Shown: positions 1 to 41,512 of the stretch, in pieces | How positions within the stretch are numbered: the stretch's first letter is position 1 | How the letters are laid out: each line of letters starts with the position of its first letter | The notes under the pieces: model-generated | Databases searched by the model: none | What the model was told of the DNA's origin: nothing | The model's input: the letters and a program-made list of their open reading frames with translations, nothing else | Program-made: the position numbers and the translations under genes | Assembly: GCA_945982035.1 (NCBI GenBank) | Contig: CAMFRO010000004.1 | Coordinates: forward strand, 1-41,512 | DNA length: 41,512 nt | Direction of reading: 5' to 3' | Source of the DNA: an uncultured Clostridia bacterium | GTDB taxonomy: Bacteria > Bacillota > Clostridia > Oscillospirales > Acutalibacteraceae

Positions 1-39
1 GTAGCGTCTCGTGGGCTCGGAGATGTGTATAAGAGACAG
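1..39. other. Untrimmed Nextera (Tn5) read-2/i7 adapter, sequencing artefact
   Basis: Positions 6-39 are GTCTCGTGGGCTCGGAGATGTGTATAAGAGACAG, the Nextera read-2 adapter ending in the 19-bp Tn5 mosaic end (21-39). Positions 1-5 (GTAGC) match the end of the reverse complement of the index GCTACGCT seen at the right end. Confidence 0.98.
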
Positions 40-8502: not shown

Positions 8503-11142
8503 ATGAAGGTAAGAGCAAAAAAAGCGCTTAAAATATTTTTAATAATTTTGCTGTGCCTGATTATTGCAATAGTAGGCTCCGCAGGTGTTTTTGCTGCGGT
8601 TTACAAGCCTGCGCTGACTCTTGATTTTTCGCAAAAAACAGGTCAGGTTACATCCGGTGCGTCGGGTTATCTGTATGGTATCGCACAGGACGGTGTTCCC
8701 AGTAGGGAAATGTGTGAAAGTGTGGATATATCCACGTCTTCTCAAATGGTAACTGATGGGCTTCAGCACCCGATTGGTGACATCAGCGACGTATATGCCT
8801 CCCTTGATAATACCGATTACAATGTGGTATATCTTCAGGATGTTTACGACACATGGTATTACAAAAAAGATGAAATTATGAGGCAGCGTCAAAACGGCTC
8901 CTACGACTGGCAGAAAATGATTACCGAGGATTATCTGCCTAAGGTTAAGCAGTCTGTGCAAAAGCTTTCAAAAGCTGAATATTCAAGCAAGGTTGTTTAC
9001 TGCCTATATAACGAGTGCGACAACGGCGTATGGTTCGGTGAAACAAAGAAAACCGACGATGAAAACAATGAATACGGCGTTTACTGCGAGTATAATGAAA
9101 AGGGCAGGGATAATTTCAATTCAGCATGGAAGCAGACCTACGAGCTTGTTAAATCAATAAATCCGGATGCTTTGATAGGCGGTCCCGGATTTTGCGATTA
9201 CGACAGTGATGAAATCGGATATTTTATGACCTTTTGTGCAAAAAACAATTGTGTTCCCGATATTATGATTTATCACGAGCTGGGCGAAGGCTCTGTGTAT
9301 TATTGGCAGGACCATGTGAATGATTACAGAAGCATTGAAAAATCTCTTAAAATCAGCGAAATTCCTATTATTGTTACCGAGTACGGACGTATGCAGGATA
9401 ACGGCTATCCCGGTGAAATGATTAAATATATCACCCAAATTGAAACGTCAAAGGTTTACGGTGATAACGCTTATTGGCGCCTTGCCGATAATCTAAACGA
9501 TGTTTGTGCCGATGATAACAGCCCCAACGCAAATTGGTGGCTTATGCGATGGTATGCAGATATGCAGGGACAGACTGTTAAAGGCGAATATCACGATATA
9601 ATGAAATCCGACTTCAAAAAGTCAATTAAGCAGCACAAAAAGCTGAATTATAAAGGATTTATGGGTATTGCATCAATAACCGACGCAGAGGATGAAATTA
9701 ATATTATTTGTGGCGGCGGTGACGATGATGCAAGAGTGGTCCTTAAAAATTTAAGCAAAACAAAGCTTAACGGAAAAACTGTTGAAATTAATATTGAGCA
9801 GACTGTTTATAAAGGTCTTTACGGCGTTGTGAATAGTCCCGTTGAGATAAAAAAATATTCCGCAAAGGTAACAGGCGAGGATTTAATTATTGATTTGAGC
9901 AATATGGACGAGGCGAACGCCTATCATATTGTGATTAAGGAGGCTGATGAAACAGCAGTTTCAGCTTATGAAAACACCTCCTTGCCTCAAAGGTATGAGT
10001 TTGAGGATGGCGAAATTTTAGGTAACGCTTATACCTATGAAAGCTACTGTCCTGCCTCCGGTGAGGAAGAAAATCTTGTAGGCGGTATGGAAAAAGACGG
10101 TGATGGCGTTGAAGTTACAGTAAATGTTGCCGAAAGCGCAATTTACGACTTGGACTTCGTTTACGGAAATTCCAACGACGGCAAAGAGGATGAAAACGGC
10201 AGACTAAATCCTGATGACAGAAAAACCTCTATTTCAAATTTGACAATAGACTCGAATGAACAGCAAATAAACTTTGCCAATACAATTAAAAGCGAATATA
10301 CCTCCTGCCAAAGTCTTAGCGTAAAGCTAAAAGCAGGGGATCATAAAATAAAAATTACTCATAACACAGGCACAATAGTTCTTGATTCTCTGATAGTTAC
10401 CTTGCATCAGCAAAGTGATTCGCCTGAAAATATTACGGTTCTTTACGATGCAGACAGAACTACCGATACTAATAAATCGTTTATTGCCATTGCACCGAAG
10501 GATAGCTATTACAGTATTACAACACCTTTAAATATTGTTGAAATGACGGTGGGCTCATCAAAAATTACCACCAACGAAATCGGTGCTGCAACTGTATATT
10601 TAAAGCGTGGTATTAATTATATTGATGTGGCTACAAATCAAGATGCAGTGCCTACTATATCGGAGTTTGACGATAACAATGCGTCGGTTATATCTCTTAC
10701 GCCTAAGCAGGCAAAGCTATCCGGCGGTGCAAGGCTTAAGAAAAATTCAACGGCTTTTGTTGATGGCAAAGTACAAAGCCTTGATTATATTTCGTCAATA
10801 AGCAGTAAATCCGGTAAGGCGGTATATGATTTTAAAGCCTCAAAAGCCGGTGCCTATAAGGTGACTGTACTTTATTCAAATAACGATGAAGGCGGAGACC
10901 ACGACTACAATGTTGATTTAATTGAACGGTATGTTACGGTTGATGTTAACGGCAAAAAGCAGAATGTTTACTGCCGCAACACTTACTCCTGGGATACCTA
11001 TAAAACTGTTACATTTACGGTAAATTTGAAAAAAGGCGAAAACAAAATCGTTCTGTCAAACGATGGCTCAAACAAATTTAATAACGTCGATACCTCGACG
11101 CCCTATATTTCATTAATTACCCTAAATCCTGCCCAGCAGTAA
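8503..11142 (+). CDS. Membrane-anchored glycoside hydrolase-like protein (clan GH-A, GH39-like) with two C-terminal CBM6/35-like modules
   Basis: N-terminal signal-anchor (ALKIFLIILLCLIIAIVGSAGVFA); candidate acid/base in VVYCLYNECDN (E171) and nucleophile in PIIVTEYGR (E293); C-terminal beta-rich repeats RYEFEDGEILGNAYTYES...HKIKITHNTGTIVLDSLIV and GGARLKKNSTAFVDGKVQSLDYIS...GENKIVLSNDGS. RBS AAAAGGAGATTTTT before the ATG. Confidence 0.7.
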   Translation: MKVRAKKALKIFLIILLCLIIAIVGSAGVFAAVYKPALTLDFSQKTGQVTSGASGYLYGIAQDGVPSREMCESVDISTSSQMVTDGLQHPIGDISDVYASLDNTDYNVVYLQDVYDTWYYKKDEIMRQRQNGSYDWQKMITEDYLPKVKQSVQKLSKAEYSSKVVYCLYNECDNGVWFGETKKTDDENNEYGVYCEYNEKGRDNFNSAWKQTYELVKSINPDALIGGPGFCDYDSDEIGYFMTFCAKNNCVPDIMIYHELGEGSVYYWQDHVNDYRSIEKSLKISEIPIIVTEYGRMQDNGYPGEMIKYITQIETSKVYGDNAYWRLADNLNDVCADDNSPNANWWLMRWYADMQGQTVKGEYHDIMKSDFKKSIKQHKKLNYKGFMGIASITDAEDEINIICGGGDDDARVVLKNLSKTKLNGKTVEINIEQTVYKGLYGVVNSPVEIKKYSAKVTGEDLIIDLSNMDEANAYHIVIKEADETAVSAYENTSLPQRYEFEDGEILGNAYTYESYCPASGEEENLVGGMEKDGDGVEVTVNVAESAIYDLDFVYGNSNDGKEDENGRLNPDDRKTSISNLTIDSNEQQINFANTIKSEYTSCQSLSVKLKAGDHKIKITHNTGTIVLDSLIVTLHQQSDSPENITVLYDADRTTDTNKSFIAIAPKDSYYSITTPLNIVEMTVGSSKITTNEIGAATVYLKRGINYIDVATNQDAVPTISEFDDNNASVISLTPKQAKLSGGARLKKNSTAFVDGKVQSLDYISSISSKSGKAVYDFKASKAGAYKVTVLYSNNDEGGDHDYNVDLIERYVTVDVNGKKQNVYCRNTYSWDTYKTVTFTVNLKKGENKIVLSNDGSNKFNNVDTSTPYISLITLNPAQQ

Positions 11143-11158
11143 AATAGCAAAAAAATAA

Positions 11159-11185
11159 CGGTGCAGATTAATACAGTCTGCACCG
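11159..11185 (-). terminator. Rho-independent terminator of the 44-aa minus-strand ORF (may also stop the upstream + strand operon)
   Basis: CGGTGCAGA ... TCTGCACCG 9-bp stem; on the minus strand it is followed by TTATTTTTTTGC. Confidence 0.8.
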
Positions 11186-11204
11186 AAAATTTTACAGCTT
11201 TTTG

Positions 11205-11339
11205 CTAACGTATAAGGGCAAAGCCTAAATCAATAACGCCTCCGAGAATTTTGGAGGTTTTGTGCATGCCCAAGGTTTCCGTAATCCAAAGAATAAGCAG
11301 CGCAACAAGAATTGCAATAATCATAGCCTCTTTGCTCAT
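11205..11339 (-). CDS. Small single-pass membrane protein, 44 aa, unknown function (below the ORF-track length cutoff)
   Basis: Minus-strand translation MSKEAMIIAILVALLILWITETLGMHKTSKILGGVIDLGFALIR*. GGAGG SD (complement of 11350-11354) 10 nt before the ATG, predicted sigma-A promoter upstream, terminator downstream. Confidence 0.7.
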   Translation of the reverse strand: MSKEAMIIAILVALLILWITETLGMHKTSKILGGVIDLGFALIR

Positions 11340-11394
11340 TTTGATAATTCCTCCAATCGGTTACATAATAATTATATAATAACTCACAATATTT

Positions 11395-11422
11395 ATTATA
11401 TACAATTTTTAAAATAAATCAA
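11395..11422 (-). promoter_or_regulatory. Predicted sigma-A promoter for the 44-aa ORF
   Basis: Minus strand TTGATT (complement of 11417-11422), 16-nt spacer, TATAAT (complement of 11395-11400). Confidence 0.5.
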
Positions 11423-11480: not shown

Positions 11481-11509
11481 TTGAAAATTTGCGGTTATTG
11501 CATTATAAT
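11481..11509 (+). promoter_or_regulatory. Predicted sigma-A promoter for oadG-oadB
   Basis: TTGAAA (11481-11486), 17-nt spacer, TATAAT (11504-11509). Confidence 0.7.
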
Positions 11510-11544: not shown

Positions 11545-12015
11545 ATGAATCCGATTCTTATGGCAACAAGCATAACTCCCGACACAAGCTTGGGCTTTAC
11601 ATCTACTGTTGTAATTTCAGGAATAGGGATAGTAGTATTAATCCTTGTTATTTTGATTATAGTGTTCCAGCTGTTCGGAGCAGGAATGTCTAAATCCCAG
11701 GCTGCTGCTAAAAAAAGAAAAGCAAAAAAGCTTGAAGAACAAATGAAGGCTGACGCCGCCGAAGCTTCGGCTGCTGCATCCTCTCCTGCACCGGCTCCTG
11801 CCCCTGCACCGGCAGTGCAAGGCGGAATCAGCGGCGAAATCGTTGCGGCTATAAGTGCCGCCGTGTATGCTATGGAGGGCGAGGGCGCAAGCGTTACTTC
11901 AATAACACCTGTTGCATCAGCGGCTGTCGCCGTTCCTGCAATGAGGAAAAATCCGATTACCGTTAGAAACCCCTGGGCACAGGCGGCGGTAACGGAGAAT
12001 ATCAGACCTTTTTAG
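11545..12015 (+). CDS. oadG: Sodium pump decarboxylase gamma subunit (OadG-like)
   Basis: Single N-terminal TM (VVISGIGIVVLILVILIIVFQLFGAG), charged stretch, Ala/Pro linker (PAPAPAPAPA), C-terminal RNPWAQAAV; directly upstream of oadB. ATG at 11545 after GGGGGAA. Confidence 0.72.
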   Translation: MNPILMATSITPDTSLGFTSTVVISGIGIVVLILVILIIVFQLFGAGMSKSQAAAKKRKAKKLEEQMKADAAEASAAASSPAPAPAPAPAVQGGISGEIVAAISAAVYAMEGEGASVTSITPVASAAVAVPAMRKNPITVRNPWAQAAVTENIRPF

Positions 12016-12027
12016 GAGGACTAATAA

Positions 12028-13239
12028 ATGTCAGAAATATTACAGGGCGTATGGCAGGCTATCTCAAGCATATTTGCCAACAGCGGTTACGCCTATTTCT
12101 TCACAAACCAGGATGGTTGGAAAAACCTTGTAATGCTTTGCGTTGCATTTTTCTTCCTGTGGCTGGGAATTAAAAAAGGCTTTGAGCCTTTGCTTATGAT
12201 ACCTATTGCTTTCGGTATGCTTTTGGCAAATCTGCCCGGTGCAAATCTTGCGGTTCAGTATCACGATTTGGCAGGATTCTTTGATTTGCTTAAAGGCAGA
12301 GGAGAATTTGTAGGCTGTACGCCGGGACTTATGGATTTTCTGTATTTCGGTGTAAAGGCGGGAATTTATCCTCCGCTTATTTTCCTGGGTATCGGTGCAA
12401 TGACCGATTTCAGCTCGCTTATTGCCAATCCTAAATCATTTATTTTGGGTGCGGCGGCGCAGTTCGGTATTTTCTTCACTTATATCGGTGCGATTCTTTT
12501 AAAATTCACACCTGCACAGGCCGGTTCAATTGCTATTATCGGCGGTGCTGACGGACCTACGGCAATATTTGTTACGTCCCAGTTAGCACCCGAGTTATTG
12601 GGTACTATCGCCGTGGCGGCGTACTCGTATATGGCACTTGTTCCTGTAATCCAGCCCCCTGTTATGAAGCTTCTTACAACCAAGAAGGAGCGAAGCGTTG
12701 TAATGGATGGATTACGTCCCGTATCAAAGCTTGAAAAAATACTTTTCCCCATTATGGTAACAGTTATTGTTTCCTTGCTTCTTCCGGATGCGGCTTCTCT
12801 TGTAGGTATGCTTATGCTCGGTAACCTGCTTAAGGAAAGCGGAAGAACGGAGCGTATTGCAAAAGCGGCTCAGAACGAATTGATGAACATTGTTACAATT
12901 CTTTTGGGTATTTCAGTAGGTGCTACAACATCTGCTAAATCATTCCTTAATCTTAAAACCTTGGGAATTGTTGCTCTCGGTCTTGCGGCATTCGTTCTTG
13001 GTACTGCCTGCGGTGTTCTGTTCGGTAAGCTTATGTATATCTTCTCTAAGGGCAAGGTTAATCCGCTTATCGGCTCAGCCGGTGTATCGGCAGTTCCTAT
13101 GGCAGCCCGTGTAAGCCAGAAGGTTGGACAAAAGGAAAATCCGTCAAACTTCCTGCTTATGCACGCTATGGGTCCCAACGTATCAGGCGTTATCGGCTCA
13201 GCAGTTGCGGCAGGTGTATTGCTTACACTTCTTAAGTGA
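12028..13239 (+). CDS. oadB: Sodium-ion-translocating decarboxylase beta subunit (OadB/GcdB/MmdB family)
   Basis: Polytopic; [94 protein letters not shown] are diagnostic of the family. Confidence 0.95.
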
Positions 13240-39486: not shown

Positions 39487-41427
39487 TTATGATTTCTTCT
39501 TTTCTGTTTTCTTCTTTTGAGCAGGTTTGCTTGCTTTAGATTTCTTGTCTGCGGTTTTCTTTAAATAAATTGCCGAAAGACCGCTGAGCTTAAGGTCAAT
39601 ACATTGGTCAAATCCGTGCAACGGCTTTTTGGATGTTTTGTAGGTTCCTGCAAGACGTTGTTTTTCTCCGCCGTATTTAGCAATATTTGTATCAAATATT
39701 ACCTTGTATGTACCTTCCTCGGGTACGCCGATTTTGTAGCTGTCAAAGCTGTTGGGGGTCCAGTTGAATACGGTAATTAATTCCTCGCCGGCCTTGTTCA
39801 TACGCCTGAATGCGATTATTGAATTACTGTTGTCGTCACTGGAAATCCACTCAAAGCCGTCCCAGCTGTAATCAATTTCCCAAAGCTCGCTGTGTTCCTT
39901 GTAAAACTCATTAAGCTCCTTGGAAAATCTCTGCATTTGTCTGTGCTTTTCGTAGTCAAGCAATAACCAATCAAGACCCTGCTTGTAGTTCCACTCAATA
40001 AACTGTCCGAATTCCGAGCCCATAAATAATAGCTTTTTGCCGGGATGAGCCATCATATATGCCAAAAACAGCCTCATACCCTGAAATTTCATATCGTAGT
40101 CACCGGGCATTTTGTTTATAAGTGAGCATTTGCCGTGAACAACCTCATCGTGGCTTATAGGAAGAATAAAGTTCTCCGAAAAAGCGTAGAAGAAGCTGAA
40201 TGTTATGCAGTTGTGATTTCCTTTTCTAAACAACGGGTCAAGGGAGGTGTAGCGAAGCATATCGTTCATCCATCCCATATTCCACTTAAAGTTGAATCCA
40301 AGTCCGCCTATATCGGGGGGCATTGTTATCATCGGCCATGCCGTTGATTCCTCGGCGATCATCATTGTGTTAGGATGCTCCGTGAGAACTGAAGTGTTCA
40401 GTCTGCGGAAGAATTCTACCGCTTCAAGATTCTCTCTTCCGCCGTTCTTATTAGGCGTCCATTCTCCATCGTTTCTGCCGTAATCAAGATAAAGCATTGA
40501 TGCAACGGCGTCAACTCTCAGCCCGTCAAAATGGAATTTTTCAACCCAGTAGTTTGCTGATGAAATGAGGAATGAAATTACTTCGTTTTTTGAATAATCA
40601 AATACACGGGTACCCCATTCCTTATGCTCGCCCTTCTTTAAGTCGGAATATTCGTAGCAGCACTGTCCGTCAAACTCGTACAAACCGTAACCATCCTTTG
40701 GAAAATGCGCCGGAACCCAGTCAAGTATTACACCGATGCCGTTTTTGTGACATGTGTCAACAAAATACATCAAATCCTCCGGCACACCGTATCTTGAGGT
40801 GGGGGCAAAGTAGCCTGTAACCTGATAGCCCCAAGAGCCGTCGTAGGGGTATTCCATAATGGGCATCATTTCAATGTGGGTGTATCCCATTTCCTTTACG
40901 TATGGGACTAACTGCTCCGCCATTTCCCTGTATGTAAGGAAGTTTCCGTCATCGTGCTGCTTCCAGGAGCCGAAATGTATCTCGTAAATGTTAACAGGTC
41001 TTTCAAGAACGCTGCCCTTTGAATTTTTCTTCGCCCATTTTTCGTCGGTCCACTTGTAATCACTTAGCTCGTACACCTTTGATCCGGTGCCGGGCCTTGT
41101 TTCTGCGTGAACTGCGTATGGGTCGGATTTAAGTATCAACCTTGAATCTGCTGTGGTAATTGCATATTTGTAGCAGTCATAAACAAGTGCATTGTCAATG
41201 ACTGCTTCCCAAATTCCCGGGGAGATGCACACACACTTGTTTTCGTTTTCGTCCCAGTTGTTGAAATCACCTACAACGCTTACAGCCTTTGCATGGGGAG
41301 CCCATACTCTGAAAGCATAGCTTTTACTATCTATTTTATGAACTCCGAAGAATTCGTATGCCTTGTAGTTTTTTCCTGCGTGAAATAAATACAAGGGAAA
41401 CTTGTATTCATCTTTTATTTCAGACAT
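39487..41427 (-). CDS. glgB: 1,4-alpha-glucan branching enzyme with Lys-rich C-terminal tail
   Basis: [86 protein letters not shown]. True start at 41427 (MSEIKDEY..., AAAGGAG upstream); the first 23 aa of the listed ORF are leader plus adapter. Confidence 0.95.
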
Positions 41428-41467
41428 ATTTCTCTCCTTTGTATTAATGTTGCGGTGAGCAACATCT

Positions 41468-41512
41468 CTGTCTCTTATACACATCTCCGAGCCCACGAGA
41501 CGCTACGCTATC
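41468..41512. other. Untrimmed Nextera (Tn5) adapter plus i7 index, sequencing artefact
   Basis: CTGTCTCTTATACACATCTCCGAGCCCACGAGAC (41468-41501), then GCTACGCT (8-base index) and ATC (start of the P7 sequence). Perfect reverse complement of the left end over 39 bp. Confidence 0.98.

Follow-up and report, generated by a model that had tools for sequence, protein, structure and literature searches.

A 44-amino-acid open reading frame on the minus strand of the window (the whole 41,512-nucleotide stretch of DNA analysed, from an uncultured Clostridia bacterium) is, on comparative evidence, a real protein-coding gene under purifying selection, and its product represents a taxon-restricted family that is unnamed in the libraries searched. 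The gene is divergent to oadG and oadB, which encode membrane subunits of a Na+-translocating decarboxylase, and the most likely mechanism, held tentatively from sequence and from analogy with other membrane complexes, is that the microprotein may serve the OadGB pump as an accessory or regulatory peptide peculiar to this clade. At this size the gene falls below standard length cut-offs and was missed for that reason. The gene, its signals and the adjoining pump genes were assigned as follows.

11205..11339, minus strand: coding sequence of the 44-aa membrane microprotein, ATG to TAG, product MSKEAMIIAILVALLILWITETLGMHKTSKILGGVIDLGFALIR
11350..11354, minus strand: Shine-Dalgarno sequence GGAGG, 10 nt before the microprotein ATG, read from the sequence
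11395..11422, minus strand: microprotein promoter TTGATTTATT..TATAAT (TTGATT-16-TATAAT, spacer 16)
11159..11185, minus strand: intrinsic terminator stem-loop of the microprotein gene, 9-bp stem CGGTGCAGA/TCTGCACCG and 9-nt loop
11158-11149, minus strand: T-rich tail TTATTTTTTT after the terminator stem
11481..11509, plus strand: oadG promoter TTGAAA-17-TATAAT, divergent to the microprotein gene and conserved in most loci
11545..12015, plus strand: oadG (OAD_gamma, PF04277), Na+-translocating decarboxylase gamma subunit
12028..13239, plus strand: oadB (OAD_beta, PF03977), Na+-translocating decarboxylase beta subunit

The frame given in the original prediction was exact to the base, and the Shine-Dalgarno sequence, promoter and 9-bp terminator stem that it described were all located on the same strand. 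Purine-rich Shine-Dalgarno sequences were also found 5′ of the homologues. The terminator stretch, with its GC-rich stem, folded at -21.8 kcal/mol (z = -4.8 versus shuffles), and terminator-like hairpins were detected by our own scan 3′ of the gene in 55 of 70 loci. The promoter is of a near-consensus sigma-A type, and the gene usually has a terminator of its own. TTGAT(T/A) and TATAAT separated by a spacer of 16–17 nt were present in 66/70 loci, with the -35 box extended to TTGATTTATT in nearly all of the 66. When the pattern TTGATTTATT-N12/13-TATAAT was searched for, the window contained one match (0 expected in shuffles), the microprotein promoter, which was also the sole match in the whole genome from which the window comes; most of the 80 genomes of the genus had one to a few forward matches, while the same pattern read backwards, as a control, gave a single match in all 80 together. 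Judging from these boxes, strong promoters seem to drive both the microprotein gene and oadG.

Conservation extends to the spacer of the microprotein promoter, with a dyad-like TATT-N4-AAATA (window 11395-11422, minus strand) that is suggestive of a regulator site overlapping this promoter. At other loci in several genomes of the genus (for example G017:C174:2872-2900, G027:C7:86241-86269 and G096:C19:11499-11527) another promoter-like sequence recurs, TTGATTTATTATGxTATTTTAxxTATAAT. Both ends of the contig carry untrimmed Nextera adapter (window 1-39 and 41469-41512), consisting of AGATGTGTATAAGAGACAG and its reverse complement CTGTCTCTTATACACATCT, with index bases flanking them, and adapter sequence supplies the first 10 residues of the listed open reading frame at 39487-41496.

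Full-length homologues were found in 75/80 genomes of the genus, including 50/51 of good quality, so that conservation of the frame in relatives was confirmed; Eubacterium coprostanoligenes ATCC 51222 is among the carriers. The five genomes without the microprotein are assembly gaps, with the locus absent or cut by a contig end: in G019 and G085 the oadB contig stops before the microprotein position (in G085 the conserved microprotein promoter stands at the end of the contig, and the gene would have been next), in G092 the contig starts within oadB, and the assemblies of G079 and G018 lack oadB. Scanning named genomes yielded 72 loci, and the gene was present as a single copy per genome at a fixed locus. 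For 70 distinct coding sequences, mean pN/pS was 0.28, and median dN/dS, calculated from the less saturated pairs, was 0.21. Together with the homologue count and the promoter conserved in 66/70 loci, these values lie far outside what chance would produce. These 70 sequences were chosen by motif; invariant residues were therefore taken from a separate alignment not so chosen, and were I8, A13, L17, W18, E21, T22, T28, G34, D37 and R44. The collected homologues were free of indels, with a length of 44 aa, or 45 aa where the ATG precedes L-S-K.

Carriers were confined to the genus of E. coprostanoligenes and its two sister genera, G386 and G352, with the gene in the same genomic place, and on the OadB tree they formed one clade (support 0.995). 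When 398 genomes from 135 genera of the family were searched with a profile, no credible homologue appeared outside these three genera, and an order-level profile search returned no further one. Among the matches rejected, one at family level (in G351) contained an internal stop, and two at order level lay inside long frames, the first of which (in G056) encodes on reading a soluble DNA-methylase-like protein and was treated as noise; the second was in G315. In G386 (locus L064) the microprotein gene lies between galactokinase and oadG. The near outgroup G388 has galactokinase (galK), about 30 bp, oadG, oadB and pcrA, which leaves no room for the microprotein gene. The simplest reading of this distribution is a single gain, in the ancestor shared by all three genera, of a gene that may have been inserted or may have arisen de novo.

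The structure was modelled with AlphaFold2 from an alignment of 42 homologues (mean pLDDT 94.8, pTM 0.67), which gave helices at residues 3-22 and 26-43. Helix 1 (pLDDT above 90) is predicted to be transmembrane, its length and hydrophobicity (peak 2.6 in a 17-residue window) being sufficient to span the membrane. The hinge E21-T22-x-G-M-x-K-T-S is predicted to lead into an amphipathic helix, 26-43, lying in or on the membrane, with a hydrophobic moment of 0.45-0.60, a polar face made up of K27, R30, G34, D37, A/S41 and R44, and three of the invariant residues (G34, D37 and R44). The single strong transmembrane helix expected at the outset was thus retained in the model, but a second, amphipathic helix accompanies it. 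Fold comparison was uninformative, as Foldseek against the PDB matched only Rop-like hairpins with E above 5.

Divergent oadG and oadB were present in 64/64 loci with enough sequence. The proposal of an independent small membrane protein gene divergent from oadG-oadB is supported. The opposite flank was occupied by 23 different gene clusters, nearly always convergent. As a control, pcrA was the next gene after oadB in 58/60 loci and also in some outgroups; we know of no functional tie between the PcrA helicase and the Na+ pump. Because this unrelated adjacency is equally conserved, synteny to oadGB does not by itself establish a function: the linkage is suggestive of a functional tie, not proof of one, and may reflect inertia combined with the promoter region that the genes share. 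Approximately 93 other genera of the family have OadB with no detectable microprotein homologue, so the microprotein is not a component of such pumps in general. The idea that it regulates the neighbouring pump accordingly remains plausible on the linkage kept in 64 loci, but is tempered by these genera and by the equal linkage of pcrA.

Several observations concern the surroundings of the pump genes. The 879-aa protein encoded at window 8503-11142 (plus strand) has a membrane or signal segment at its N-terminus and only a sub-threshold CBM6 match, and it was a neighbour of the microprotein gene in no more than a few relatives. In another genus of the family (locus L143), a different 75-aa open reading frame with a hydrophobic stretch (MIPMVFTQAYLD...) lies approximately 380 to 130 bp 5′ of oadG, on the same strand as oadG. 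The OadA-type soluble arm, biotin carrier and carboxyltransferase are on another contig of the same genome as the window, where locus L152 (G000:C6, 1399-4213) has a carboxyltransferase (PF01039), a biotin carrier and an OadA-type subunit (HMGL/PYC_OADA) in tandem. PF01039 gave a single match in this genome and in each tested carrier-clade genome having a match; AccD-type proteins are expected to match PF01039 too. By its composition the L152 set looks like a transcarboxylase, and it may stand in for acetyl-CoA carboxylase.

In the mechanism proposed, the microprotein would be expressed from the twin strong promoter beside the pump, with the soluble arm (OadA and biotin carrier) encoded elsewhere, and would dock on the OadB/OadG complex within the membrane, acting as an accessory subunit or as a modulator. 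Docking on OadB or OadG would be analogous to that of KdpF and CydX with their complexes, and would stabilise the OadB/OadG assembly or tune Na+ coupling. In Salmonella, the membrane complex of OadB and OadG is beta3-gamma3, and the gamma subunit stabilises the holoenzyme (PMC7274780). The fuller evolutionary statement, of a lineage-specific extra subunit or regulator of an OAD-type Na+ pump that was acquired a single time, between galactokinase and oadG, by the ancestor of the three genera and has been fixed since, is possible, and we put it forward with more reserve.

Almost as likely as a pump accessory peptide is a free-standing membrane microprotein (an envelope or stress peptide, or a modulator of some other membrane protein) that has stayed beside oadG solely because rearrangements would damage the compact divergent promoter region common to both genes. 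In its favour are its own conserved promoter, in most loci its own terminator, and the many genera that run OadB without it; the oadB-pcrA neighbourhood is just as static, and the outgroup G388 keeps galK-oadG-oadB-pcrA with no microprotein gene. Against this stands the fact that the gene was never parted from oadG in 64 loci, despite the variety of clusters on the other flank.

A small hydrophobic toxin, of a type I toxin-antitoxin system or a similar membrane-depolarising peptide, is improbable. Length, the strong transmembrane helix and the C-terminal basic residues are in keeping with toxins of this kind, but in place of the patchy or multicopy occurrence looked for in a type I toxin, the gene is single-copy, sits at a fixed locus in about 80 species, is not mobile and is under purifying selection. 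The promoter is strong and conserved, no antisense partner is visible inside the gene, and Rfam gave no match, antitoxin RNA families included, in a search that covers known families and would miss a novel antisense RNA. A function of the transcript or promoter region rather than of the peptide, as a small RNA or regulatory spacer, is less probable again: in its favour, the microprotein promoter is more conserved than its surroundings, but selection acts at the codon level, the frame is conserved, a Shine-Dalgarno sequence precedes it in the species examined, and Rfam, as noted, was silent. A spurious open reading frame, to which only the length below the usual cut-offs might point, is refuted by all of the conservation data.

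The analysis gives an uncharacterised small membrane protein family a defined position, the boundary of its clade and a clear hypothesis for its partner; the genus throughout which the family occurs is common in gut and rumen and has a cultured member in E. coprostanoligenes ATCC 51222. As unannotated taxon-restricted small families are common (GMSC catalogue, PMC11364881), the find is modest until function is shown. Should the microprotein bind OadGB, a primary Na+ pump would have a clade-specific component not recognised before, and the origin of a membrane peptide could be located between two known genes; a primary energy-converting pump would then have recruited a membrane peptide that is new and possibly arose de novo.

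The family was not recognised when the gene was first proposed, and searches of Pfam, NCBIfam and PDB sequences with the microprotein gave no usable match, while literature searches yielded nothing on the family. One or two members weakly hit DASS symporters (E 0.02), MAG0130 membrane proteins (best E 0.0025) and PAP2 (E 0.11), hits that were attributed to chance on hydrophobic helices. The PHROGs family phrog_7319 (phage, function unknown, 54 positions) was matched weakly over residues 6-38 (best E = 0.00097), near the noise level for hydrophobic helices, and viral contigs and phage genomes held no relatives of the microprotein. TatA and TatE share with the microprotein a transmembrane helix, a short hinge and an amphipathic helix, but there was no Tat match in Pfam, and the microprotein is very short and lacks the TatA signature; a Tat assignment was dropped.

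Among pump subunits, MmdE (epsilon) of methylmalonyl-CoA decarboxylase belongs to the Oad pump family as a very small additional subunit, and resembles the C-terminal part of the delta subunit. The microprotein was rejected as its counterpart, aligning, not significantly, only with the transmembrane stretch of OadG. Like OadG, GcdD and MmdD (PF04277), the microprotein is small, has an N-terminal transmembrane helix and is encoded beside OadB; unlike them, it ends at residue 44 with neither an AP-rich linker nor the OadG C-terminal tail, and its locus has a separate oadG next door. No PF04277 match rose above noise, hhalign to the window's OadG gave a probability of 9.7, and the comparisons lent no support to derivation from OadG or OadB. 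GcdD is the OadG counterpart in Clostridium symbiosum (PMC7145394).

CydX of cytochrome bd (PMC4325964) and KdpF of KdpABC (PMC3618439) are peptides of 30-45 aa with one transmembrane helix, each belonging to one large membrane complex. The microprotein differs from both in being divergent from its putative partner rather than in the partner operon, in its added amphipathic helix, in matching no library sequence and in being missing from most bacteria that have the putative partner; it resembles them in its short length, its transmembrane helix and its fixed genomic association with putative partner genes.
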